A stretch of 64,000 bases of DNA from Pseudomonas sp. HN11 (lineage in GTDB: Bacteria; Pseudomonadota; Gammaproteobacteria; Pseudomonadales; Pseudomonadaceae): assembly GCF_021390155.1 (NCBI RefSeq), contig NZ_CP089985.1:4971001-5035000 (forward strand), given 5' to 3'. The notes below the pieces were generated by a model, which searched no databases, had not been told where the DNA came from, and saw nothing but the letters and a program-made list of their open reading frames with translations. Every line of letters begins with the position of its first letter. Position 1 is the first letter of the stretch. Of the stretch, positions 5,847-64,000 are shown piece by piece. The position numbers and the translations under genes were made by a program.

Positions 5847-6281
5847 TAACACTCCTGGGTAAATACAATGTGAGATGACAACCGTGCACTCAACTAATCA
5901 ACTCTGCGAGTTTAGCGTTTATTAGAGACCGCGATAAAACCGCCAGGCTCATAACGTAATGGCATGTTTAGGCTTATTTAGAATTTAAATAGTGCACTTG
6001 CATTAATGTTTATAGTGCTTTTGTTAAGCCGTGGTCAAAAAGTTTGCACATCCGTAAAAACGGTCTAGTTTCAAACGTCCATGGCGTCGACTAAATGATT
6101 AACCAAAAACGGGAGAGACGGCTCTGCAAAGCGTCTTTCCGAGGACTTTCATCGCCCACGAGTTTCCAATCTGAATCATTAATTCACAATGGAATGTGCC
6201 AATGAAGTGATCTGAGTCAGCTGTTTGAATAGCGCACGGAATTATTCTGTGGTCTCTCTTCTCCTGCATTGGAGTTATGCA
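5847..6281. promoter_or_regulatory. Divergent promoter region between the two arcD paralogues
   Basis: This 435-base, AT-rich gap must hold promoters for both antiporter genes. Repeated TAGTGC elements occur near 5992 and 6013, and a short CGTAAAAACG palindrome lies near 6053. I looked for the ANR/FNR consensus TTGAT-N4-ATCAA, expected for an anaerobic arc operon, and did not find a convincing match. A partial ArgR-like half-site (TGGCGTCGACTAAA) lies near 6081. The control elements are therefore undefined. Confidence 0.5.
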
Positions 6282-7709
6282 ATGTCTGAATCTCCCGGAA
6301 AACTTCGACTCGGCGCACTGGTTGCGCTTGTCGTGGGCTCGATGATTGGCGGCGGGATCTTCTCACTGCCGCAAAATATGGCCGCCAGTGCCGATGTCGG
6401 CGCCGTGTTGATCGGCTGGGTGATTACCGCCATCGGCATGTTGACCCTCGCGTTCGTGTTCCAGACCCTGGCCAACCGCAAGCCCGACCTGGACGGCGGG
6501 GTATACGCCTACGCCAAGGCCGGTTTCGGCGACTACATGGGTTTCTCGTCCGCCTGGGGCTACTGGATCAGTGCCTGGCTGGGCAACGTGGGCTACTTCG
6601 TACTCTTGTTCAGCACCCTCGGTTACTTCTTCCCGCTATTTGGGGAGGGCAATACCCCTGCCGCGGTGATTGGCGCCTCGGTGCTGCTATGGGCCGTGCA
6701 TTTCCTGGTGCTGCGCGGCATCAAGGAAGCCGCGTTCATCAATCTGGTGACCACCGTCGCCAAGGTCGTGCCGCTGGTGCTGTTCGTGTTGATCGCGCTG
6801 TTTGCATTCAAGCTGGAGATCTTCACCGCTGACATCTGGGGCGTGAAAAACCCGTACCTGGGCAGTGTGATGAACCAGGTGCGCAACATGATGTTGGTCA
6901 CCGTGTGGGTGTTCATCGGCATCGAAGGCGCGAGTATCTTCTCGTCCCGTGCGGAAAAACGCTCCGACGTGGGCAAGGCCACCGTCATCGGTTTTATCAC
7001 CGTACTGCTGTTCCTGATGCTGGTGAACGTGTTGTCCCTGGGGATCATGACTCAGCCGGAGCTGGCCAAGCTGCAGAACCCGTCGATGGCCGCCGTGCTG
7101 GAGCATGTGGTGGGCCACTGGGGTGCGATGCTGATCAGCGTCGGCCTGATCATCTCGCTGCTGGGGGCGTTGCTGTCGTGGGTGCTGCTGTGTGCGGAGA
7201 TCATGTTCGCCGCCGCCAAGGACCACACCATGCCGGAGTTCCTGCGCAAGGAAAACGCCAACCACGTGCCGGTCAATGCCCTCTGGCTGACCAACGCCAT
7301 GGTGCAACTGTTCCTGGTGATCACGCTGTTCTCGGCCAGTACCTACCTGTCGCTGATCTACCTCGCCACCTCAATGATCCTGGTGCCTTACCTGTGGTCG
7401 GCGGCTTACGCGCTGCTGCTGGCGGTGCGTGGCGAGACCTACGAAAACGCCCTGAAAGAGCGCAAGAAAGACCTGTTCATCGGCACGATCGCCCTGGTGT
7501 ACGCGATCTGGCTGCTCTACGCCGGTGGCACCAAATACCTGCTGCTCTCCGCCCTGCTCTACGCCCCCGGCGCAATCCTGTTCGCCAAGGCCAAGCGTGA
7601 ACTGGGCAAACCGATTTTCACCAATGTCGAGAAGTTGATTTTCGCCGCAGTGGTCATTGGCGCCCTGGTGGCAGCCTATGGGCTCTACGACGGCTTCCTG
7701 ACCTTGTAA
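6282..7709 (+). CDS. arcD: Arginine/ornithine antiporter ArcD
   Basis: Inner-membrane antiporter of 475 residues from the ATG at 6282, with GGAG seven bases upstream. An in-frame extension to 6225 lacks a ribosome site. It has about 12 transmembrane helices and the APC motif VVGSMIGGGIFSLP near residue 20. It brings arginine in and takes ornithine out, so arginine deimination can run without net energy cost. It is the first gene of arcDABC, 24 bases before arcA. It is very similar to the divergent paralogue at 4419-5846. Confidence 0.95.
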   Translation: MSESPGKLRLGALVALVVGSMIGGGIFSLPQNMAASADVGAVLIGWVITAIGMLTLAFVFQTLANRKPDLDGGVYAYAKAGFGDYMGFSSAWGYWISAWLGNVGYFVLLFSTLGYFFPLFGEGNTPAAVIGASVLLWAVHFLVLRGIKEAAFINLVTTVAKVVPLVLFVLIALFAFKLEIFTADIWGVKNPYLGSVMNQVRNMMLVTVWVFIGIEGASIFSSRAEKRSDVGKATVIGFITVLLFLMLVNVLSLGIMTQPELAKLQNPSMAAVLEHVVGHWGAMLISVGLIISLLGALLSWVLLCAEIMFAAAKDHTMPEFLRKENANHVPVNALWLTNAMVQLFLVITLFSASTYLSLIYLATSMILVPYLWSAAYALLLAVRGETYENALKERKKDLFIGTIALVYAIWLLYAGGTKYLLLSALLYAPGAILFAKAKRELGKPIFTNVEKLIFAAVVIGALVAAYGLYDGFLTL

Positions 7710-7733
7710 CTTGTGTTTAACGGAGGATCTGTA

Positions 7734-8990
7734 ATGACCACGGAAAAAGTGAAGTACGGCGTACATTCCGAAGCCGGCAAACTGCGCAAAGTCATGGTGT
7801 GCTCCCCAGGCTTGGCCCACCAGCGGCTGACCCCCAACAACTGCGATGAACTGCTGTTCGATGACGTGCTATGGGTGGCCCAGGCCAAGCGCGATCATTT
7901 CGACTTCGTCACCAAGATGCGTGAGCGGGATATTGATGTGCTGGAAATGCACAACCTGCTGACCGACATCGTCGCCATCCCCGAAGCGCTGGATTGGATC
8001 CTGCAGCGCAAGATCACCGCCAACACCGTCGGCCTGGGCCTGGCGGATGAAGTCAGCTCCTGGCTGCGCAGCCTGGAGCCGCGCAAAATCAGCGAGTTCC
8101 TGATTGGGGGCGTGTCCGCCGATGACCTGCCGAGCAGCTTCGGTGGCAAGACCCTCGAGATGTTCCGCGATTTCCTAGGGCATTCGAGTTTCATCCTGCC
8201 GCCACTGCCCAACACTCAGTTCACTCGCGACACCACCTGCTGGATCTACGGCGGCGTGACGCTCAACCCGATGTACTGGCCGGCGCGACGCCAAGAGACT
8301 CTGCTGACCACCGCCATCTACAAATTCCACCCGGAGTTCACCAACGCCGACTTCCAGATCTGGTACGGCGACCCGGACCAGGAGCACGGCGCTTCCACCC
8401 TGGAAGGCGGCGACGTGATGCCGATTGGCAACGGCGTGGTCCTGATCGGCATGGGCGAGCGTTCGTCCCATCAGGCGATCGGCCAACTGGCGCGCAACCT
8501 GTTCAAGAACAAGGCGGTGGAGAAAGTCATCGTTGCCGGCCTGCCAAAATCCCGCGCGGCGATGCACCTGGACACCGTGTTCAGCTTCTGCGACCGCGAC
8601 CTGGTCACTATCTTTCCCGAAGTGGTCAACCAGATCGTGCCGTTCACCCTGCGCCCGGATGAAAGCAAGCCACATGGCATTGACATCCAACGCGAGAAAA
8701 CCAACTTCCTCGACACCGTCGCCGCCGCCCTCGGCCTCAAGGCCCTGCGCGTCGTCGAAACCGGCGGTAACAGCTTCGCCGCCGAACGCGAGCAGTGGGA
8801 CGACGGCAACAACGTGGTGGCCGTGGAGCCGGGCGTGGTGATCGGTTACGACCGCAACACTTCCACCAACACCCTGCTGCGCAAGGCCGGCGTGGAAGTC
8901 ATCACCATCAGCGCCGGTGAACTGGGCCGTGGCCGTGGCGGCGGCCACTGCATGACCTGCCCGATCATCCGCGACCCTATTGACTATTAA
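7734..8990 (+). CDS. arcA: Arginine deiminase
   Basis: Cytoplasmic enzyme of 418 residues that hydrolyses arginine to citrulline and ammonia, the first step of the arginine deiminase pathway. The ATG at 7734 has GGAGG seven bases upstream; a start seven codons earlier is not needed. Visible motifs include FTRDT, the EGGDVMPIG segment and the C-terminal GGGHCMTCP with the nucleophile Cys406, the same number as in the P. aeruginosa enzyme. Length and C-terminus match the family. It lies between arcD and arcB in a compact operon. Confidence 0.97.
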
Positions 8991-46306: not shown

Positions 46307-47251
46307 TCAAACTTCCGGCCAGAACGCCCTAATCCCAGCGACACCCTGAGCCCCAGCCTCCCAAGCTTTTTCCCGCTCAGCAGGCCCAACCCCACCCAGC
46401 AAAAAAACAGGCTTGCTGAACCCACTGATCAACTCAGCCGCCTGCTCCCAACCCAATGGCTGTGCGTCAGGATGGGTCTGCGTGGGCTGCACCGGCGACA
46501 GCGTAACGAAATCCACGTCCATCATTTCCGCCAGCGCCAACTCCTCGGCATTGTGGCAAGAGGCCGCCAACCAACGGTCTTTAGGCAATGGCCGGCCTTT
46601 GTTCGCGTATTTGCGCAATTGCGCCGAGGTCATGTGCCAGCCCGCCGAAGGAAAATCCCCCAACCATTCGAACGGTCCCTTGAGCATCAACTGGGCCTTA
46701 CCCGCACACAACCCCACTGCATCCACCGCGAGGTCGCGGTATTTGGGGTCGTAACCGTTGGGCGCCCGCAACTGAACCAACTTGATGCCGCCAGCAATGG
46801 CTTTCTGAATACCGCGCAACAATACCGGAGTTTCCAGCTCGCCCGGAGTGATCAGATATTGCGCTGGCAAACGCGCAGCCGCAACGATCGGTGCATTGGC
46901 CGCTGGAAACTCATAGTTGAGCAGGTCCCGAGGGGCCACCCATTCCAGAGGCTGCCCTTCAACACCATGAGGTTCGCCGGTGAAGGCCGAGACCTCCCAG
47001 ACATCCAGCAACACCTGTTTGTCCGGGTAGTCATGCTGCACTTTGATCAGCGGACGCGCCGTGGTGACATGGATACCCAGCTCTTCCTGCAATTCGCGGG
47101 ACAATGCGCTGGCGACCGATTCATCGGCCTCTACCTTACCGCCGGGAAACTCCCACAAGCCGCCCTGATGCTGAGTGTCGGCGCGGCGCGCCAGCAGGAT
47201 CCTGCCGTCGACACCGCGGATCACCGCTGCTGCTACATGCACTCGTTTCAC
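46307..47251 (-). CDS. Nudix hydrolase fused to a thiamine-phosphate-synthase-like domain
   Basis: Two-domain protein of 314 residues. Residues 1-130 are a MutT-type Nudix domain with GGLWEFPGGKVE and the Nudix box ending RELQEELG. Residues 140-314 resemble ThiE/TenI: QLRAPNGYDP, WHMTSAQL, SCHNAEEL, VTLSPVQPTQTHP and LLGGVG. The first part should hydrolyse oxidised dGTP and prevent mutation; the second keeps much of the phosphate loop but its activity is unproven. The start is GTG at 47251. The fusion is widespread in gammaproteobacteria (PA4400 type), which suggests a joint role. Confidence 0.9.
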   Translation of the reverse strand: MKRVHVAAAVIRGVDGRILLARRADTQHQGGLWEFPGGKVEADESVASALSRELQEELGIHVTTARPLIKVQHDYPDKQVLLDVWEVSAFTGEPHGVEGQPLEWVAPRDLLNYEFPAANAPIVAAARLPAQYLITPGELETPVLLRGIQKAIAGGIKLVQLRAPNGYDPKYRDLAVDAVGLCAGKAQLMLKGPFEWLGDFPSAGWHMTSAQLRKYANKGRPLPKDRWLAASCHNAEELALAEMMDVDFVTLSPVQPTQTHPDAQPLGWEQAAELISGFSKPVFLLGGVGPAEREKAWEAGAQGVAGIRAFWPEV

Positions 47252-47271
47252 CGTGCTCTTCCTCTTGGCTG

Positions 47272-48489
47272 TCAGGTACGGTATTCCGCGTTGATCTTCA
47301 CGTACTCGTGGGACAGGTCGGTGGTCCAGATGGTTTCGCTGCACTCACCACGACCCAGCTCTATGCGGATAGTGATTTCTTCCTGCTGCATCACTGCCGA
47401 GCCCTGGGCTTCGGTGTAGGACTCGGCACGCGCGCCACGGCTGGCGATGCATACGTCGCCCAGGAACACATCAATCTTGCTCACGTCCAGATCCGGCACG
47501 CCAGCACGGCCGACTGCCGCCAGGATACGGCCCCAGTTCGGGTCCGAGGCGAACAGCGCCGTCTTGATCAGCGGCGAATGCGCTACGGTGTATCCCACGT
47601 CCAGGCATTCCTGGTGATTGCCGCCGCCATTCACTTCAACGGTCACGAACTTGGTGGCGCCCTCTCCGTCACGCACGATGGCCTGGGCCACGTCCATGCA
47701 CACTTCGAACACGGCTTGCTTCAGCGCCGCGAACAAGGGACCGCTGGCTTCGGTGATTTCCGGCAGGCTGGCCTGGCCGGTGGCGATCAGCATGCAGCAG
47801 TCGTTGGTCGAAGTATCGCCATCGATGGTGATGCGGTTGAACGACTTGTTGGCACCGTCCAGGATCAGGCTGTGCAGCACGTCGCGGGAGACTTTGGCGT
47901 CGGTGGCGATGTAGCCGAGCATGGTGGCCATATTCGGACGGATCATGCCTGCCCCCTTGCTGATGCCGGTCACGGTAACGGTCACGCCGTCGTGCACGAA
48001 CTGGCGGCTGGCGCCTTTGGGCAGAGTATCGGTGGTCATGATGCCGGTCGCGGCGGCAGCCCAGTTATCCACAGACAAATCGTCCAGCGCGGCTTGCAAT
48101 GCACCTTCGATTTTCTCGACGGGCAACGGCTCACCGATCACGCCAGTGGAGTACGGCAGCACTTGGCTGGCGTCCACGCCGGTCAACTGAGCCAGCTTGG
48201 CGCACGTGCGCGCAGCCGCCACCAGGCCAGGCTCGCCGGTGCCGGCGTTGGCATTGCCAGTGTTGGTCAGCAGGTAACGGATCGTGCCGGCCACGCGTTG
48301 CTTGGCCAGGATCACCGGCGCGGCGCAGAACGCGTTGAGGGTGAACACACCGGCGACGGTCGAGCCTTCGGCGCAACGCATCACCACCACATCCTTACGC
48401 CCTGGGCGCTTGATGCCGGCCGAAGCGATACCGAGTTCAAAACCGGCAACCGGGTGCAATGTGGGCAAAGGACCAAGACCAACAGCCAT
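47272..48489 (-). CDS. argJ: Bifunctional glutamate N-acetyltransferase / ornithine acetyltransferase
   Basis: Enzyme of 405 residues that recycles the acetyl group in arginine synthesis, moving it from N-acetylornithine to glutamate. The precursor cuts itself before the nucleophile Thr189 in [11 protein letters not shown]. The oxyanion threonine pair is in STGVIGE. GGAG precedes the ATG. It lies 20 bases upstream of the Nudix gene and behind secA's terminator. Confidence 0.95.
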
Positions 48490-48550
48490 GAATGCGCTCC
48501 TTAAAAATAGGTGATGTCTGTGCCGTCGTAAGCGACGGTGAAATTAAGGC

Positions 48551-48583
48551 AAAACGCCGCGACGGCAGAGGCCGGTCGCGGCG
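48551..48583 (-). terminator. Terminator of secA
   Basis: CGCCGCGAC (48555-48563) pairs with GTCGCGGCG (48575-48583). Leftward the stem is followed by TTTT, so it separates secA from argJ. Confidence 0.82.
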
Positions 48584-48611
48584 CGGGGTGTTGCAGCGTC
48601 AGGCAGAAAGC

Positions 48612-51347
48612 TTATTCGATCTGGCCGTGGCAGTGTTTGAACTTCTTGCCCGAGCCGCACCAGCACAGCTCGTTACGGCCCAGCTTCTGGTCGTTGCGAA
48701 CCGGGGTTTGAGCCAGGACCACATCAATCTCTTCGCCCAGAACTTCAGGGGCTTCCAGGCCCGGCGCTTCGTCATGCTGGAACTGCATGCGCGCAGCCAG
48801 TGCCTCGGCTTCCTGACGCAGGCGGGCTTCTTCCTCGATCGGGTCTTCGCGACGCACCTGAACGTGGGACAGCACACGGATCGAATCGCGCTTGATCGAA
48901 TCCAGCAGTTCGGAGAACAGCGTAAACGACTCGCGCTTGTACTCTTGCTTCGGGTTTTTCTGGGCGTAGCCACGCAGGTGGATGCCGTGACGCAGGTGAT
49001 CCATGGTCGACAGATGGTCTTTCCACAGGTCATCCAGCACGCGCAGTACGATCTGCTTCTCGAAGGTGCGCAGTGCTTCGGCACTCGCCTGCTCTTCCTT
49101 CTCGTTGTACGCGGCCAGCAGCTCGGTCATCAGCTTCTCGCGCAGCGTCTCTTCGTACAGGTGGTCGTCTTCGTCCAGCCACTGTTGAACCGGCAAGTCG
49201 ACGCCGAAGTCGCTCTTCAATGCAGCTTCCAAGCCGGCAACATCCCACTGCTCTGGAAGAGACTGTGGCGGAATATGCGCGCTGACGGTGGCGTTGAGCA
49301 CGTCCTGACGGAAGTCGGCGATGGTCTCGCCGATATTGTCAGCGGCCAGCAACGTGTTACGCATGTGATAAATCACTTTACGCTGTTCGTTGTTGACGTC
49401 ATCGAACTCGAGCAGCTGTTTACGAATGTCGAAGTTGCGACCTTCGACCTTACGCTGTGCCTTCTCGATAGCGTTGGTCACCATGCGATGTTCAATCGCT
49501 TCACCGGACTGCATGCCCAGGGCCTTCATGAAGTTCTTCACGCGGTCCGAAGCGAAGATGCGCATCAGGCTGTCTTCCAGGGACAGGTAGAAGCGGCTGG
49601 AACCGGCGTCACCCTGACGACCGGCACGACCACGCAGCTGGTTGTCGATACGACGCGATTCGTGACGCTCGGAGGCGATTACCTGCAGACCACCGGATTC
49701 CAGCACGGCCTGGTGGCGTTTCTGCCAGTCAGCCTTGATCTGGGCGATCTGCTCAGGGCTCGGATTTTCCAGCGCCGCGACTTCCACTTCCCAGTTGCCG
49801 CCCAACAGGATGTCGGTACCACGGCCGGCCATGTTGGTGGCGATGGTCAGTGCGCCCGGGCGACCGGCCTGGGCGATGATCTCGGCTTCTTTTTCGTGGA
49901 ACTTGGCGTTGAGGACCTTGTGCTCGATGCCTTCCTTGTTGAGCAGGTTGGACACGTGCTCGGAAGTCTCGATGGTGGCAGTACCCACCAGGATCGGTCG
50001 CCCCTGGGCCAGGCCGTCCTTGATGTCATTGATAATTGCCGCGTATTTCTCTTCGGCCGTCAGAAACACCAGGTCGTTGAAGTCTTTACGCGCCAACGGC
50101 TTGTTCGGCGGAATGACCATCACGGCCAGGTTGTAGATCTGGTGGAACTCGAACGCTTCGGTGTCGGCCGTACCGGTCATGCCGGACAGTTTGTTGTACA
50201 GACGGAAGTAGTTCTGGAAGGTAGTGGACGCCAACGTCTGGCTTTCAGCCTGGATGTTGAGGTGTTCCTTGGCTTCGATGGCCTGGTGCAGACCTTCGGA
50301 CAGACGGCGACCCGGCATGGTACGGCCGGTGTGTTCATCAACCAATACGACCTGGCCGTCCTGCACGATGTATTCAACGTTGCGATGGAACAGCTTGTGG
50401 GCGCGCAGGCCGGCATACACATGAGTCAACAGGCCCAGGTTATGTGCCGAGTACAGGCTTTCACCCTCGGCCAGCTCGCCGATCTGGGTCAGCATCTCTT
50501 CGACGAACTGGTGACCAGCTTCGTTGAGCTCGACCTGACGGGTCTTCTCGTCGATGGTGAAGTGACCTTCTTTGGTCACTACGCCTTCCACTTCCTCGAT
50601 GTGCTGTTCCAGGCGCGGAATCAACTTGTTGATTTCGGTGTACAGGCGCGAACTGTCTTCGGCCTGGCCGGAGATGATCAGTGGGGTACGGGCTTCGTCG
50701 ATGAGGATGGAGTCGACTTCGTCGATCACGGCAAAGTTGAGTTCGCGCTGGAATTTTTCTTCCATGCTGAACGCCATGTTGTCGCGCAGGTAGTCGAAAC
50801 CGAATTCGTTGTTGGTACCGTAGGTAATGTCGGCGGCGTAGGCGGCACGCTTCTCTTCCGGCGGCTGGAACGGCGTTACCACACCGACGGTCAGGCCGAG
50901 GAACTCATACAGCGGGCGCATCCAGTTGGCGTCCCGGCGAGCCAGGTAGTCGTTCACCGTCACAACATGCACGCCCTTGCCGGACAACGCATTGAGGTAA
51001 ACACCCAGGGTTGCCACCAGGGTCTTGCCTTCACCGGTACGCATTTCGGCAATCATGCCTTCATGCAAGGTCATGCCGCCGATCAACTGGACGTCGAAGT
51101 GGCGCATGCCCATTACACGTTTACCGGCTTCACGGGCGACCGCAAAGGCTTCGGGAAGCAGCTTGTCGAGGGTTTCACCTTTGGCTATGCGGGCCTTGAA
51201 CTCTTGGGTCTTGGCGCGCAATTGCTCGTCCGACAGGGCAACCATCTGCTCTTCGAGGGCATTGACCAGCTGCACCGTCTTGAGCATGCGTTTGACTTCG
51301 CGCTCATTCTTGCTTCCAAAAAGTTTCTTTAACAAAGGCGCAAACAT
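48612..51347 (-). CDS. secA: Preprotein translocase ATPase SecA
   Basis: Motor of 911 residues that pushes secretory proteins through SecYEG. Walker A MRTGEGKT, the DEAD-like box [13 protein letters not shown] and the later GTATIETSE and RAGRQGDAG motifs are in order. The C-terminal zinc site [14 protein letters not shown] binds SecB. Translation starts at [11 protein letters not shown] (51347). It is an essential, single-gene transcription unit. Confidence 0.97.
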
Positions 51348-57027: not shown

Positions 57028-57069
57028 AAACATTTAAAGTAATTCACACAAATACGACCTTAAATGTTT
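57028..57069. promoter_or_regulatory. AT-rich inverted repeat upstream of mvaT
   Basis: AAACATTTAA (57028-57037) and TTAAATGTTT (57060-57069) are perfect inverted copies separated by 22 bases, 73 bases before the mvaT start. The purU-mvaT gap is 350 bases; the first 200 bases show nothing I can name. Such AT-rich palindromes fit MvaT's own preference, so it may be an autoregulatory site. Confidence 0.5.
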
Positions 57070-57141
57070 ACTTGGGGAAACCGCCTGACTATTATTGGGC
57101 CACTATCCCTGTCAATCAGCGCTCTACATAAGGTAGTCCAC

Positions 57142-57516
57142 ATGTCTCTGATCAACGAATACCGTGCCACCGAAGAAGCTATCAAAGAGCTGCAAGCCCG
57201 TTTGAAGAATCTGTCCCAAGACGACAAACTGCAAACCGAGCTGGAATTCGAAGGCAAATTGCGCGCCCTGATGGGTGAATACTCCAAATCCCTGCGTGAC
57301 ATCATCGCGCTACTGGATCCAGAGTCTAAAGTTAAAGCACCGCGCGGCGCTGTGAAAACTACTGGCACCAAGCGTGCTCGCAAGGTCAAACAATACAAAA
57401 ACCCGCACAACGGCGAAGTGATTGAAACCAAAGGTGGCAACCACAAAACTCTGAAAGAGTGGAAAGCCAAGTGGGGCGGTGACGTGGTTGAAGGCTGGGC
57501 TACCCTGCTGGGCTAA
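57142..57516 (+). CDS. mvaT: H-NS-like nucleoid regulator MvaT
   Basis: Xenogeneic silencer of 124 residues. The N-terminal coiled coil (about 1-60, MSLINEYRATEEAIKELQAR) makes dimers and higher oligomers. The C-terminal domain binds AT-rich minor grooves with the AT-pincer motif in TKGGNHKTLKEWKAKWG. It represses horizontally acquired and virulence-type genes together with MvaV. Translation starts at 57142, and an open frame upstream is non-coding. A strong terminator follows, so it is monocistronic. Position equals PA4315. Confidence 0.95.
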   Translation: MSLINEYRATEEAIKELQARLKNLSQDDKLQTELEFEGKLRALMGEYSKSLRDIIALLDPESKVKAPRGAVKTTGTKRARKVKQYKNPHNGEVIETKGGNHKTLKEWKAKWGGDVVEGWATLLG

Positions 57517-57605: not shown

Positions 57606-59033
57606 TTACAGATTGACTCTGGCGGCGAGAGCATCTGCATATTCCTGCCACTGCTCCAGTACCCCATGCTGAAACGGCGTCGCACTAACTGAAAACTCCT
57701 GCCTGGCCTGCTTAAATGCCTCAAGGGTATTCGGCGCACCCCACTCCCGGTTCGACAACCGTTGCTGACAAAAAAGTATCCAGCGTTGTTGCTCTTCGCT
57801 GTTCAAGGTATGCGGGAAGTTACGCGCACGGTACCGAAACAATAGTTCAGGCAAACGGTGATCATCAAATGGCCACTGCTGGCTTGATAATTGCGCAGGC
57901 TCGGCCGCCCTGACTTGTTCACATAAACGTCGATCACGGTCTCCAATAAAACCGTCGTAAAGCTGCTGTTCCGGGTCGGTACTCGCTGTGAAGTCTTCTT
58001 CGGCGTAAATGGCCGCCAACTTATCGCGCCAAAGTTCCTGTGCGTCAGTTAGCCGCAGCGCCCGCTCCTGATAAATGTTCATGTCCAAGTGCAGACGTTC
58101 ACGATCTTGCGCCCGTAGCACATTCAAAGGCGCAACCACCGGGCAGCGATTTATGTGCACCAATTTGAGCGGCACTGGCAGTTCGCCCTCGGCAAGATCG
58201 TCACGGCGGGTGTAGAGGCGCTGGCGCAAGGTAACGGCATCAAGGTCCAGCAATCCTTGAGGATCAAGCCCCAGGTCGCAGACGATCAGGGCATTACGGT
58301 TACGCGGGTGCCACGCCAGAGGCAGCACGACCCCCAGGTAATGACGCTCGGCAGAAAAGCGCCCGGAGATATGCACCATCGGTTGCAGCAAGCGCACCTG
58401 ATCCATCACCCGTTGTTTACTGCGCAATTGAAACAGCCATTCATACAGCCTGGGTTGTTTCTCACGCACCAATCGAGCCAAGGCAATCGTGGCGCGCACG
58501 TCGGACAACGCGTCGTGAGCCTGCCCATGGTCAATGCCGTTGGCTTCGGTCAGGCGCTCCAGCTTGAGCGTGACACGCCCATCCTGTTGCGGCCATTCAA
58601 TGCCTTCCGGACGCAGGGCGTAGGCAGTGCGAACCACGTCGATGAGATCCCAGCGGCTATTACCGCCCTGCCACTCCCGCGCGTAAGGGTCGAAAAAATT
58701 GCGATACAGGCTGTAGCGCGTCATTTCATCGTCAAAACGCAAGGTGTTGTAGCCTGCACCGCAAGTACCCGGGGCGGCCAGTTCAGCATGCACCCGGGTC
58801 ATGAAATCGGCCTCGGCCAGACCTTTTTCCGCGAGGATTGCGGGGGTGATACCGGTAATCGCGCAGGCGACGGGGTGAGGCAGGATATCCTCGCTGGGCT
58901 GGCAATAAAGATTGACTGGCGCGCCGATCTCATTGAGGTCGAAGTCCGTGCGAATGCCAGCTACCTGGAGTGGGCGATCGCTGCGCGGATTGATGCCGGT
59001 GGTTTCATAGTCGTACCAGAAAATGGAGGTCAC
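57606..59033 (-). CDS. sbcB: Exodeoxyribonuclease I
   Basis: Single-strand 3'-5' DNA exonuclease of 475 residues used in mismatch repair and recombination. The DEDDh motif starts with FWYDYETTGINPRSDR (Asp8, Glu10), continues with NTLRFDDEMTRY, and the His/Asp of the third motif lie in GQAHDALSDVRATIALA. A C-terminal SH3-like and helical part completes the C-shaped clamp. Length matches E. coli (475). It lies divergent from the RDD-led cluster. Confidence 0.96.
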   Translation of the reverse strand: MTSIFWYDYETTGINPRSDRPLQVAGIRTDFDLNEIGAPVNLYCQPSEDILPHPVACAITGITPAILAEKGLAEADFMTRVHAELAAPGTCGAGYNTLRFDDEMTRYSLYRNFFDPYAREWQGGNSRWDLIDVVRTAYALRPEGIEWPQQDGRVTLKLERLTEANGIDHGQAHDALSDVRATIALARLVREKQPRLYEWLFQLRSKQRVMDQVRLLQPMVHISGRFSAERHYLGVVLPLAWHPRNRNALIVCDLGLDPQGLLDLDAVTLRQRLYTRRDDLAEGELPVPLKLVHINRCPVVAPLNVLRAQDRERLHLDMNIYQERALRLTDAQELWRDKLAAIYAEEDFTASTDPEQQLYDGFIGDRDRRLCEQVRAAEPAQLSSQQWPFDDHRLPELLFRYRARNFPHTLNSEEQQRWILFCQQRLSNREWGAPNTLEAFKQARQEFSVSATPFQHGVLEQWQEYADALAARVNL

Positions 59034-59200
59034 GGGCTATTCCTGTACTGAAGATGGACAAAGTCTAGGCGTTGAGCGACGTCCGCGACCAGCACCAAAT
59101 ATACTGTACAAACATCCAGCAAAACCTTGAATGGTTGCTTCCATCCGCGACACTGCTAGCATCCGTATCTCCCAGCCGCTCTGCACTGACAAGGATCGCG

Positions 59201-59893
59201 ATGCCGTCAACCCCGTTGGATACCCGCTATCAGATCGAGACCCCGGAAGGTATCGACCTGCCCCTGCGCCCGGCCGGCCTGATGCCACGCGTGCTGGCCT
59301 TTGCCTTCGACCTGGGTATACGTGCGGTAGTCATGGGTGTGATGCTGGTGCCATTGGCCTTGCTCGGCAACGTCGGTATCGGCCTCGGTTCGCTGCTGCT
59401 GTTTCTGATCAGTTGGTGGTACATGGTGCTCTTTGAGGTGCTCAACCAGGGTTGCTCGCCCGGCAAACAAGTCATGGGGTTACGTGTCGTACAAGATGAC
59501 GGCACGCCGATTGGCTGGTCCGCGTCACTGATCCGTAACTTGCTGCGGTTTGTCGACATGCTGCCATTCGGTTACTTTCTCGGCGCGATCAGTTGCCTAC
59601 AACATCCTCACTTCAAGCGTTTGGGCGACTTGGCGGCCGGCACACTGGTGATCTACCAGGAACAGCCGCTGGTGCGTCCCCGGATTCCTCAAGCGGCGGC
59701 CTTGCGCCTACCCTTTGCGCTGGATTTGAGCGAACAACGCGCCATCCTTGGTTTCGCAGAACGCCAGGGCGAGTTGTCCACCGCACGTGTTCACGAGCTG
59801 GCATCAATTCTCGCCACCCCCTTGCAGGTATCTCCGGCCCGCGCCGTCGAGCAACTCAATGGTGTGGCCCGTGGCCTGTTGGGGCCGACATGA
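59201..59893 (+). CDS. RDD family membrane protein, first gene of the SpoIIM-MoxR cluster
   Basis: Protein of 230 residues. After about 25 residues the RDD motif appears as GLMPRVLAFAFDLGIRAVVM. Hydrophobic segments lie at about 31-52, 58-78 and 118-136, with a conserved GCSPGKQVMGLRVVQDDG loop. The last 70 residues form a soluble tail (SEQRAILGFAERQGELS), which makes this RDD protein longer than the one at 19956. AAGGA lies five bases before the ATG at 59201. It overlaps the SpoIIM-like gene by four bases. Confidence 0.88.
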   Translation: MPSTPLDTRYQIETPEGIDLPLRPAGLMPRVLAFAFDLGIRAVVMGVMLVPLALLGNVGIGLGSLLLFLISWWYMVLFEVLNQGCSPGKQVMGLRVVQDDGTPIGWSASLIRNLLRFVDMLPFGYFLGAISCLQHPHFKRLGDLAAGTLVIYQEQPLVRPRIPQAAALRLPFALDLSEQRAILGFAERQGELSTARVHELASILATPLQVSPARAVEQLNGVARGLLGPT

Positions 59894-60870
59894 AGCAGAG
59901 TCTTTTCGAACGCCGCCACCAGCCTCAATGGAAAGCCTTTGCCGAACATCTGCAACACTTGGAGCAAGGTAAGGCCCAAGCCAGTGACGTGGCCGATTTC
60001 CCCCATCAATATCGACGCCTGTGCCACCACCTGGCACTCGCCCAAGAACGTGGCTACAGCAGCTATCTGGTAGATCCCTTGCAGCAACTGGCACTACGCG
60101 GCCATCAACAGCTCTACCGTCATCGCGGCCAATTGGCGGCGAATGTGCTGAGTTTCCTACTCGCCGGTTTTCCTCGATTGGTGCGAGAACAGTGGCGCTT
60201 CATATTGATAGCGAGCGCGTTGTTCTTTGGCAGCCTGATGGGTATCGCTCTGTTGGTGTACCTGTTTCCCGACCTGGTCTACAGCATCATCAGCCCCCAG
60301 CAAGTTGCCGAGATGCAGAGCATGTATGACCCCGATGCCAGTCACCTGGGTCGCGCCGCCGAACGGGCATCAAGCGAAGACTGGATGATGTTCGGCTACT
60401 ACGTGATGCACAACATCGGTATCGCTTTCCAGACGTTTGCGGCGGGTTTGTTGTTTGGTCTGGGGAGTGTGTTCTTCCTGATTTTCAACGGACTGATCAT
60501 CGGCGCAGTCTCCGGGCACCTGACAGAAATCGGTTACGGGCAGACCTTCTGGTCTTTCGTCATCGGCCATGGAGCATTCGAACTGACGGCGATCGCCCTC
60601 GCCGGCGCCGCGGGCCTGCAGGTAGGCTGGGCGCTGATCACTCCCGGACAGTTGACCCGTGGTGAATCATTGCGGATGGCGGCACGCAAGAGCGTGCAAA
60701 TGATGTGCGGTGTCATGATTTTCCTGCTCATCGCTGCCTTTATCGAGGCGTATTGGTCATCCACCACCATGATCACCCCTTGGGTCAAATACCTGGTGGG
60801 CACTAGCCTTTGGCTGCTGGTGATCAGTTACCTGAGCCTTGCCGGAAGGACTCGCCATGCGCCTGAGTGA
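59890..60870 (+). CDS. SpoIIM-like (stage II sporulation protein M) membrane protein
   Basis: Membrane protein of 326 residues of the SpoIIM family (PF01944). A soluble N-terminal part (1-95) is followed by about five helices. The family segments YVMHNIGIAFQTFAAGLLFGLGS and IGHGAFELTAIALAGAAGL are clear. In Bacillus SpoIIM organises septal peptidoglycan hydrolysis during engulfment, but pseudomonads do not sporulate, so its role here must differ. It is translationally coupled at both ends: ATGA with the RDD gene and a 14-base overlap with the next. Confidence 0.9.
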   Translation: MKQSLFERRHQPQWKAFAEHLQHLEQGKAQASDVADFPHQYRRLCHHLALAQERGYSSYLVDPLQQLALRGHQQLYRHRGQLAANVLSFLLAGFPRLVREQWRFILIASALFFGSLMGIALLVYLFPDLVYSIISPQQVAEMQSMYDPDASHLGRAAERASSEDWMMFGYYVMHNIGIAFQTFAAGLLFGLGSVFFLIFNGLIIGAVSGHLTEIGYGQTFWSFVIGHGAFELTAIALAGAAGLQVGWALITPGQLTRGESLRMAARKSVQMMCGVMIFLLIAAFIEAYWSSTTMITPWVKYLVGTSLWLLVISYLSLAGRTRHAPE

Positions 60871-62386
60871 TGCCAGCGTCGTAATCCGTCCACGCACGGC
60901 CTGGGAAGCCATGGATCTTGGCGTATTAATGGCCCGGGAACATCGCCTGCTGTTAATGGTTAGCTGGGCGCTGATAACTCTGCCAGTGTTTGCCTTACTC
61001 ACTGCACTGCTGTGGAAATACCCGTCCACTGCCATGTTTCTGTTCTGGTGGCTTAAGCCAGCCTTCGACCGCTTACCGCTGTACATCCTGTCCAAGGTTT
61101 TGTTTGGCGAAACACCCAGCGTCAGGGAGGCAGTGCGCCAATGGCCGCGCCTGCTCCAAGGCCAACTGCTGGCCAGCCTGACCTGGCGACGGTTCAGCCT
61201 GAGTCGAAGCTTTGTGATGCCGGTGAGCCAACTCGAAGGCCTGGATGGCACGGCACGCCAAAAACGCCTGGGCGTGCTGCAGCAACGTAACGCCGGGACC
61301 GCACGCTGGTTGACGACCATCGGAGTGCACCTGGAAATCGGCTTGTGGTTCGGTTGTATGGCGCTGTTCTATCTGTTTATTCCTCAAAACGTCGAGATGG
61401 ATTGGGACTGGCAACGCCTGGCGCTCGCGACACACTCAGAAGGGTTGTGGCTTGAACACCTGAGCAACGCCCTCTATGCGTTGATTCTAGTATTTTGGGA
61501 GCCCATCTATGTCGCTTGTGGTTTCAGCCTCTACCTTAACCGTCGTACCGTATTGGAGGCCTGGGACCTGGAATTGGTCTTCCGCCGCTTTCGTCAGCGC
61601 CTGAGCAATGTAACGCCGCTTTTAGTACTGATGATCGGGCTGACGCTACTGCCATTGAGCCGGCCCGTTATGGCTGATGCGCCCAGCTCTCCCAAGCCAC
61701 TGACCACCCACAGCGCGAACCAATCCATCAAGTCGCTATTGGAAAAGCCCCCTTTCAAAAACCCGGAAACTGTCACCCGGTATCGCTTTGGCGAAGAGAA
61801 CCCTCCCACTAAAAACAAAGCTCAAAGCGACGGTAAACTTCCGGGCTGGCTGAAGGCGCTACTGAACAACCTCAACAGCGATACCTTCAAGCACATCGCC
61901 CAAGGCCTGGAAATGTTGTTGTGGGGAGTGCTGATCAGTGGCCTGACACTACTGGCGTGGAGGTATCGAGAGTGGTTGCGCACCTTTGTGAGTCGACGCG
62001 GGCCACGCAAGCCCAGCGTTATCAAACCAGTACCTACGCAATTGTTCGGCCTTGAACTGGGTACCGAGACCTTACCCGATGATGTTGCCAGCACTGCCGA
62101 ACACCTGTGGGCCACCCGACCAAGGGAAGCTCTCGGCCTGCTGTATCGCGGCTTGCTCAGCCGGCTCTTACATGACTTCAATGTACCGCTGAAAAGCGCT
62201 GACACCGAAGGCCAGGTCCAGGAAAGAGTCCACCAGTTGCAGCACCCGCAACTGCTGGCTTTCAGCGATGAGTTGACCCGGCACTGGCAAAACCTCGCCT
62301 ACGGCCATCACCTGCCTCCCCTCTCAGTCCAGCAAAAACTGTGCAGTGATTGGCGCATCCTGTTCAGCTCAGGGAGCCCCCCATGA
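60857..62386 (+). CDS. DUF4129 domain membrane protein
   Basis: Protein of 509 residues. Helices lie at about 35-60, 155-177, 205-230, 258-280 and 350-372. A C-terminal DUF4129-like domain contains the PREALGLLYRGLLSRLLHDFNVPL segment, followed by DTEGQVQERV. The segment between residues 280 and 345 is Pro/Lys/Ser-rich and probably periplasmic. GGAAGGA lies six bases before the ATG. Overlaps on both sides show a tight operon. DUF4129 proteins are often found near MoxR ATPases and transglutaminases; the function is unknown. Confidence 0.85.
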   Translation: MRLSDASVVIRPRTAWEAMDLGVLMAREHRLLLMVSWALITLPVFALLTALLWKYPSTAMFLFWWLKPAFDRLPLYILSKVLFGETPSVREAVRQWPRLLQGQLLASLTWRRFSLSRSFVMPVSQLEGLDGTARQKRLGVLQQRNAGTARWLTTIGVHLEIGLWFGCMALFYLFIPQNVEMDWDWQRLALATHSEGLWLEHLSNALYALILVFWEPIYVACGFSLYLNRRTVLEAWDLELVFRRFRQRLSNVTPLLVLMIGLTLLPLSRPVMADAPSSPKPLTTHSANQSIKSLLEKPPFKNPETVTRYRFGEENPPTKNKAQSDGKLPGWLKALLNNLNSDTFKHIAQGLEMLLWGVLISGLTLLAWRYREWLRTFVSRRGPRKPSVIKPVPTQLFGLELGTETLPDDVASTAEHLWATRPREALGLLYRGLLSRLLHDFNVPLKSADTEGQVQERVHQLQHPQLLAFSDELTRHWQNLAYGHHLPPLSVQQKLCSDWRILFSSGSPP

Positions 62387-63552
62387 AACAGCCATTACTG
62401 TGGGTGGGACTACTGCTGGCGTGCCTGCTTGGCGCGGGATGTTACTACGTATGGCGCACGGCAACTCCTTACGACGAGGTGATTGACCGTGGCCCTTCGC
62501 CGGAAGCACTGGCCAATCAATACCTGGCAGCCGAACACTTTCTGCGCCAGCAAGGCCTGACCGTGGAGCACGCCACTGATCTTGAGCGATTGACAACCCT
62601 GCCTGCCAGGGGAAACAGCCTGTTGCTGCTCGGAGAGCGCAGTACCCTGTCACCACGCCAGGCAGAACAACTGCTGAACTGGGCCAGATCCGGCGGCCAT
62701 CTGTTACTGGTGGCTGAAGCGCTATGGGATGAAGAGACTGGCAAAAGTGGCGACCTGTTGCTGGATCGCCTGCATATCCACCAGACCTTGAGTGATGAGC
62801 CTGAAGAACTCGCTCCTTCCAGTAAAAAAAACCTTGAAAAGAAAGTCCCGGACCTGACCAAACTCTACGTTGACAATGAAACCCCCGCCGCCTATTTCAG
62901 TTTCGACACGGACTTCAACCTCACCGACCCCAAGCACCTGGCTCAATTTTCTGCCAACAGCGCAAGATCGAGCCACCTGATGCAACTCAACCTTGGGGAA
63001 GGCCGTGTCACGGTGATTACCGACAGCGACGTGTGGAAAACCCCGAACATCGGCAAACACGACAATGCTTGGCTGCTGTGGCACCTGAACCAGGGCACGG
63101 CCGTCACTTTGCTGTTCAACAGCGACTTCGATGACGTGTTCACCCTGCTGATGCGGTATTTCCCCCATGCCTTGACGGCGCTCACTGCCCTGGTCGCCTT
63201 GGCGTTGTGGAAGGCCGGTATGCGTCAAGGCCCGGTTCAGGCTCCCGCGCCGAACGCGCGTCGCCAATTACAGGAGCACCTGAATGCGAGCGCCGACTTC
63301 CTGCTGCGGCGCTGCGGTCAGGGCACGCTGCTGCATGCCTTGCAGTGCGATATCTTACGCGCGGCGCGGCACCGCCACCCCGGTTTTGAGCACCTCGGCA
63401 ACGCAGAGCAGTGGCGGATGCTTGAACACCTGACACGCCAACCCTCTAACGTCATCAGCCAGGCCCTTGGCCCACTCCCGGCAAAACGGCTTTCCAGCGC
63501 CGATTTCAGCCGGCAAGTGGCATGCCTGCAAACCCTCAGGAATGCCCTATGA
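62383..63552 (+). CDS. DUF4350 domain protein
   Basis: Protein of 389 residues. An N-terminal membrane anchor (about 6-25) is followed by a large DUF4350 domain. Visible segments are [37 protein letters not shown] and [17 protein letters not shown], with a Rossmann-like, GldG/IFT52-related look. A second helix lies at about 260-278, followed by a cytoplasmic tail (about 280-389). It overlaps its neighbours by four bases on each side (ATGA). In other genomes the family sits in MoxR-DUF58-DUF4129 clusters. Confidence 0.85.
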
Positions 63553-64000
63553 GCGAATTTCCAAGCGCAACCGCCCTAACCCGCGAAACCTTGCAGCGCG
63601 CCGCCGGGCAAGCCCAAGCTCTGCGCACTGAATTGCGCAAGGCAGTGATTGGCCAGGACCAGGTGATTGACGACATCCTGACCGCACTGATCGCTGGCGG
63701 CCATGTGTTGCTCGAAGGTGTGCCGGGGCTGGGTAAAACCTTGTTGGTTCGTGCCTTGGCTCGATGCTTCGATGGCGATTTCGCGCGTATTCAATTCACC
63801 CCGGACCTGATGCCCAGCGATGTCACCGGCCATGCCGTGTACGACCTGCGCACCGAACAGTTCAAGTTGCGCAAAGGGCCGGTGTTCACACACCTGTTGC
63901 TGGCCGACGAAATCAACCGCGCCCCAGCCAAGACTCAAGCGGCCTTGCTCGAGGCTATGCAGGAACGGCAAGTGACCCTCGAAGGCGAAGCGCTGCCCAT
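63549..64000 (+). CDS. MoxR-family AAA+ ATPase (partial, cut by the window edge)
   Basis: The first 150 residues of a MoxR ATPase. After a leader of about 30 residues come [12 protein letters not shown], the Walker A loop [20 protein letters not shown] and the Walker B segment [24 protein letters not shown], all diagnostic. MoxR proteins act with VWA/DUF58 partners as chaperones that load metals or assemble membrane complexes. It overlaps DUF4350 by four bases. Its partner DUF58 gene is expected just beyond the right edge. Confidence 0.93.

Follow-up and report, generated by a model that had tools for sequence, protein, structure and literature searches.

In this study, we report the analysis of a six-gene operon at the right-hand end of a 64,000-nucleotide stretch of the Pseudomonas sp. 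HN11 genome (the window; positions 4971001-5035000 of G000, a genome of one contig of 6,273,117 bases). The operon is real and strongly conserved, and it very probably matches a cluster with an already reported role in a related Pseudomonas. Its genes encode, in order, an RDD-family membrane protein, a SpoIIM-family membrane protein, a DUF4129 protein, a DUF4350 protein, a MoxR AAA+ ATPase and a DUF58 protein (Table 1). Domains were assigned by Pfam profile search, in which all six proteins scored above the curated cut-offs, and gene starts were set by picking an ATG inside the listed open reading frames. An earlier note, made from the window alone, had counted five genes with overlaps of 4-14 bases; the overlaps stand, and the count becomes six with the DUF58 gene, which the note had guessed to lie just right of the window and which is present there (PF01882). 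From RDD to MoxR the successive overlaps measure 4, 14, 4 and 4 bases, and 7 bases separate MoxR from DUF58. A simple sigma-70 scan returned a single site, inside DUF58, against 3.3 expected.

Table 1. Features of the operon and its surroundings. Positions are those of the window; positions past 64000 are window-equivalent.
Feature	Position	Strand	Length	Pfam match or remark
RDD-family membrane protein	59201-59893	+	230 aa	PF06271 2.6e-20; AAGGA precedes ATG
SpoIIM-family membrane protein	59890-60870	+	326 aa	PF01944 1.7e-38
DUF4129 protein	60857-62386	+	509 aa	PF13559 4.6e-07
DUF4350 protein	62383-63552	+	389 aa	
MoxR AAA+ ATPase	63549-64544	+	331 aa	PF07726 1.1e-64; PF17863 9.1e-19; gene cut by window end at 64000
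DUF58 protein	64552-65883	+		PF01882 7.5e-27; VWA_2 28.2 bits against cut-off 27; outside window
ACAAGGAT	59189-59196	+		Over RDD Shine-Dalgarno; resembles RsmA/RsmE site, lead only
sbcB (presumed exonuclease I)	57606-59033	-		Conserved upstream neighbour by tblastn synteny; outside operon
MvaT-type xenogeneic silencer gene	57064-57516			Adjoins sbcB
Frame	47104-48504		466 aa	No Pfam match at 1e-4; overlapped by opposite-strand frame of like length, coding strand unsettled
Frame	48492-51332		946 aa	No Pfam match at 1e-4; overlapped by opposite-strand frame of like length, coding strand unsettled

Conservation of the gene order was examined in 144 loci, comprising the HN11 locus, 63 loci from other genomes and 80 named Pseudomonadaceae loci among the matches listed, none of the 80 being labelled P. 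aeruginosa. The six genes were found in one order and on one strand in 131 of the 144. L086, which has a sub-threshold SpoIIM match, showed none of the genes, MoxR-DUF58 lay on the strand opposite RDD-SpoIIM in L081 and L085, and a contig end interrupted the operon in L084, L126, L129, L156 and L157. Junctions were counted over the 138 loci unique by SpoIIM DNA, using as denominators the junctions with both genes in range and scoring an in-frame ATG or GTG available at the given distance, which is not a proven start. By this measure, a start codon was available at -4 in 127/138 RDD/SpoIIM, 112/131 DUF4129/DUF4350 and 122/128 DUF4350/MoxR junctions, and at -8, -11, -14 or -17 in 124/134 SpoIIM/DUF4129 junctions, while a 4-base overlap of MoxR and DUF58 was possible in 80/124. 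Because overlapping starts recur across the 138 loci, the overlaps exceed chance.

The operon is present or absent at a fixed site. SpoIIM was found in 30/36 genomes of the same genus (HN11 included) and in 33/57 genomes of the whole relatives set; at wider range it was found in 67/99 genomes and 15/19 genera of the family, in 12/114 genomes of the class, where 11 matches cleared the cut-off, and in 46/299 genomes of the phylum, 36 of them with a match over the cut-off. Upstream of the operon lies the gene that we take to be sbcB, and downstream of DUF58 a PilZ-domain gene comes first, followed by a small gene and a presumed pykA. In all six same-genus genomes lacking SpoIIM, sbcB adjoins the PilZ gene with pykA ~1.1-1.2 kb away, and an arc2-type DUF58 was not found in any of the six (best matches 26-32% and partial; MoxR was not searched separately). 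With SpoIIM and DUF58 missing and sbcB beside PilZ and pykA, the operon is absent from its site in these genomes, and genomes with such a clean empty site are natural negative controls. DUF4350 alone is commoner (58/114 class genomes). Where a class genome had a SpoIIM match that cleared the cut-off, DUF4350 lay no more than a few kb away in 10 of 11 cases, the eleventh (G038) being at a contig end. The earlier note's proposal that these genes encode one coupled membrane system, a MoxR ATPase included, is supported; the unlinked phyletic patterns that it named as evidence to the contrary are largely not seen, apart from five of the 144 loci that lack MoxR and/or DUF58 nearby. The MvaT-type silencer gene thus lies close to an operon whose presence varies between species.

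The anatomy of the proteins was predicted from domain, hydropathy and structural comparisons. In MoxR, both Walker motifs (A, GxPGxGKT; B, DEINR) were intact in 128/128 aligned rows. The SpoIIM protein carries an N-terminal part of ~100 residues ahead of its first hydrophobic stretch in a hydropathy scan; a further Pfam domain, PF28475, is listed by the database on SpoIIM proteins and was not among our Pfam matches. The DUF4129 protein is predicted to consist of a membrane N-terminal half, a variable loop, a transmembrane segment near residues 341-369 and a helical C-terminal domain, and its N-terminal half gave a weak CysZ-like structural match (AF2 model, mean pLDDT 77.4). For the DUF4350 protein, the prediction comprises a transmembrane segment, a GATase1/ThuA/IFT52-like domain (residues 40-241) without cysteine, a second transmembrane segment and a helical tail. 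In both proteins the predicted cytosolic parts are more conserved than the predicted periplasmic parts, with 65.2% for the DUF4350 tail against 51.8% for the putative periplasmic part, and 59.4% for the DUF4129 C-terminal domain against 35.0% for the loop. The DUF4129 domain was also compared with the cytosolic tail of DUF4350, and homology of the two was rejected as unproven (hhalign probabilities at most 3.6%). The DUF4129 protein does not fit a transglutaminase of the TgpA type, since Pfam gave DUF4129 alone in it at E up to 1 and no transglutaminase domain.

Gene content and neighbours indicate that the operon is very probably orthologous to PA4317-23 of P. aeruginosa PAO1. The neighbours mvaT-sbcB are shared under the PAO1 gene numbering. 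In the examined parts of PMC8926400, PA4317-23 is named arc2A-G and described as a Gac/Rsm-controlled antagonism-defence cluster of very low basal expression, so the earlier view of these genes as functionally undescribed no longer holds. According to the same source, six Arc2 genes were recovered in the first screen, P. aeruginosa depends critically on arc2 under attack by the type VI secretion system of B. thailandensis, and removing ColA from the attacker significantly restores survival of the arc2 mutant. The cluster is reported there to co-occur in many Pseudomonadaceae and Xanthomonadaceae and to include a MoxR-like ATPase and a protein with a VWF domain, both of which are also encoded in the operon studied here (Pfam). 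An AAA domain is listed for PA4322, and mutations in PA4321 have been seen in starved P. aeruginosa biofilms, according to the part of PMC8459498 examined. Under heat, H2O2, high salt or detergent, strains without Arc1-3 survived as the wild type did (PMC8926400), which contradicts, for general stress, the note's guess at a stress role. No follow-up on the Arc2 mechanism was found in the open-access literature, subscription journals and preprints lying outside the search.

Between sbcB and RDD, 46 of the 144 loci carry one or two similar copies of a gene for a DUF975/GPDPase_memb-like membrane protein, an assignment made from sub-threshold Pfam matches. The query that matched these 46 loci gave no match in the HN11 genome. 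Since the PAO1 cluster has seven genes, arc2A-G, we infer that the DUF975-like gene is arc2A. An RsmY gene (125.8 bits) and a DUF2339 (Arc3A-type) protein are present in the HN11 genome. Ahead of RDD, ACAAGGAT resembles an RsmA/RsmE site. A conserved RsmA/RsmE site over the RDD start was nevertheless rejected and the motif kept as a mere lead, because it occurs at chance level and, in many further Pseudomonas, the corresponding positions of the alignment are coding sequence of RDD after an upstream start.

On balance, we consider it fairly probable that the operon is the six-gene version of the arc2 locus and that its MoxR-DUF58 motor remodels an inner-membrane complex so that cells survive toxin pores. 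MoxR would form a cytosolic AAA+ ring working with the membrane-anchored DUF58 protein, and the pair would spend ATP on remodelling an inner-membrane assembly of RDD, SpoIIM, DUF4129 and DUF4350, which the motor may grip by the conserved cytosolic tails. The outcome would be survival of toxin-made pores in the inner membrane, whether the pores are removed, the membrane is resealed or the ion balance is kept. The analysis directly supports the gene content and its conserved coupling, the occurrence or lack of the operon at a fixed site, the intact ATPase motifs and the predicted domain layout, whereas Gac/Rsm control and defence against ColA are taken from the PAO1 literature in the parts examined; the membrane topology and a physical complex of the operon proteins are presumed. 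The remodelling step taken alone is possible, at somewhat less than even confidence, and is drawn by analogy with NorQD, a MoxR AAA+/VWA pair proposed, in the part of the literature examined, to remodel an inner-membrane oxidoreductase. Both systems join a MoxR AAA+ protein with a VWA partner, a pairing generally considered to act by remodelling its target proteins.

Several observations weigh against this interpretation. The arc2 assignment derives from gene content and neighbours, and the PAO1 cluster has seven genes where the operon here has six. The Rsm-like motif occurs 3 times in the window, with 2.86 occurrences expected by chance. The metal ion-dependent adhesion site (MIDAS) of DUF58 is degenerate, reading DxSxS in 0/125 rows and DxG in 124, whereas NorD, in the source examined, needs its MIDAS residues for function; target recognition would thus differ from that of NorD, the NorD mode of binding cannot simply carry over, and the operon was not filed as NorQD-like. 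Our confidence in the interpretation as a whole is reduced by the five of 144 loci without MoxR and/or DUF58 nearby and without a contig end. A further 2.6 kb in L127 and 6.3 kb in L167 showed neither gene, and MoxR was present while DUF58 was not found in 6.3 kb of L080 and 3.3 kb of L100, regions elsewhere not having been searched in these four; in G139 (L070), neither gene followed DUF4350 within 4.3 kb, and both lay ~10 kb on, beside PilZ and pykA. In L048 and L055, 2.4-2.8 kb of other genes separate DUF4350 from MoxR. The breaks in L048, L055 and G139 share one junction, at which the membrane genes meet the motor genes, and L127 and L167 are possible additional examples. By eye, the frames of the 2.4-kb insert in L048 (~6150-8450) resemble a trimeric autotransporter adhesin, and the insert of L055 (~6300-8800) carries flavohaemoprotein-like and nitronate-monooxygenase-like genes.

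Other explanations have to be weighed against pore survival by remodelling. The RDD protein could make up a transporter together with the CysZ-like half of DUF4129, to be assembled or opened by MoxR-DUF58, in which case depolarisation would be tolerated by ion movement and not by membrane repair; this we regard as unlikely. A machine for cell wall or division, the latter also guessed at in the earlier note, appears distinctly improbable; in it SpoIIM would bring envelope enzymes to the septum, in the manner of the DMP complex of sporulation, and MoxR would act as the switch. The B. subtilis SpoIIM of that complex belongs to the same Pfam family (PF01944), and Rv3694c and Rv3695, tabulated as SpoIIM and RDD homologs in the examined part of PMC8191103, are among 19 proteins reported to co-precipitate with the mycobacterial divisome protein Rv0954. 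Against a division role, the operon is absent from 6/36 genomes of the same genus, single-gene deletions in PAO1 grew as the wild type against a non-antagonising competitor in the published data examined, and Pfam found no peptidoglycan-enzyme domain in the six proteins. Neither SpoIID nor SpoIIP was matched in the operon proteins, the rest of the genome not having been searched for these two.

The HN11 genome also contains a second MoxR-DUF58 set, with DUF4381, VWA, VWA-TPR and BatD, at ~G000:C1:2889205-2896044, which raises the thought that the operon serves as a general envelope-integrity chaperone in the manner of this separate Bat-type operon. We consider such a role very unlikely, given that the Arc1-3 mutants resembled the wild type under the four stresses above and that no DUF4381 or BatD match was obtained with the operon proteins (Pfam). 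MoxR stands beside DUF58 in both, but in the Bat-type operon (L200, G000:C1:2887000-2901000, ordered MoxR-DUF58-DUF4381-VWA-VWA-BatD) the partners are DUF4381, two VWA proteins and BatD. Its DUF58 reads MVEQSCRL at the MIDAS motif and has no strongly hydrophobic stretch, the highest 19-residue mean being 1.33 compared with 2.15 in the arc2-type DUF58.

Beyond the class, the genes recur in a rearranged form. Of the 36 genomes of the phylum whose SpoIIM match cleared the cut-off, 20 were examined, all from outside the family: one from the same taxonomic order, three from the same class and 16 from other classes. The gene order of Pseudomonas sp. HN11 recurs in the four nearer genomes and, among the 16, in G352, whereas 15 of the 16 loci from other classes read MoxR-DUF58-SpoIIM-RDD in one direction. 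When the genes just upstream of MoxR were scanned in 4 of the 15 permuted loci, DUF4129 matched 3/3 and DUF4350 3/3 of the proteins tried, all below the Pfam cut-offs. Taken at face value, the order in other classes would be DUF4129-DUF4350-MoxR-DUF58-SpoIIM-RDD, a cyclic permutation of the Pseudomonas order.

The location of SpoIIM genes next to those for VWA and AAA+ proteins has been published before for several bacteria (PMC5898192, in the part examined). The examined part of the table in PMC8191103 gives homologs of DUF4350, MoxR, DUF58, SpoIIM and RDD under the consecutive numbers Rv3691-Rv3695, so that five families are common to the mycobacterial cluster and the operon here. It differs in its order, DUF4350-MoxR-DUF58-SpoIIM-RDD, in having SpoIIM on the other strand by its gene name, and in that no DUF4129 gene is named in that part of the table. 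An extension of the remodelling proposal, which we put forward as rather doubtful, is that the six families constitute an ancient membrane-damage machine found across the phylum and in Actinobacteria, its order kept up to cyclic permutation, of which the PAO1 toxin-defence cluster and Rv3691-95 would be two uses. A non-catalytic, GATase-like periplasmic DUF4350 reader would sense damage outside, the MoxR-DUF58 motor with its degenerate MIDAS would answer inside, and SpoIIM, RDD and DUF4129 would make up the membrane body.

The anatomy described here makes it possible to test specifically by what route Arc2 protects against a pore-forming toxin. It suggests asking which tail is gripped by the motor, whether the cysteine-free GATase-like domain has a periplasmic ligand, and whether the extra membrane gene is required. 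The permuted version would additionally widen the reported range of the system and connect the problem with a mycobacterial cluster as yet uncharacterised.

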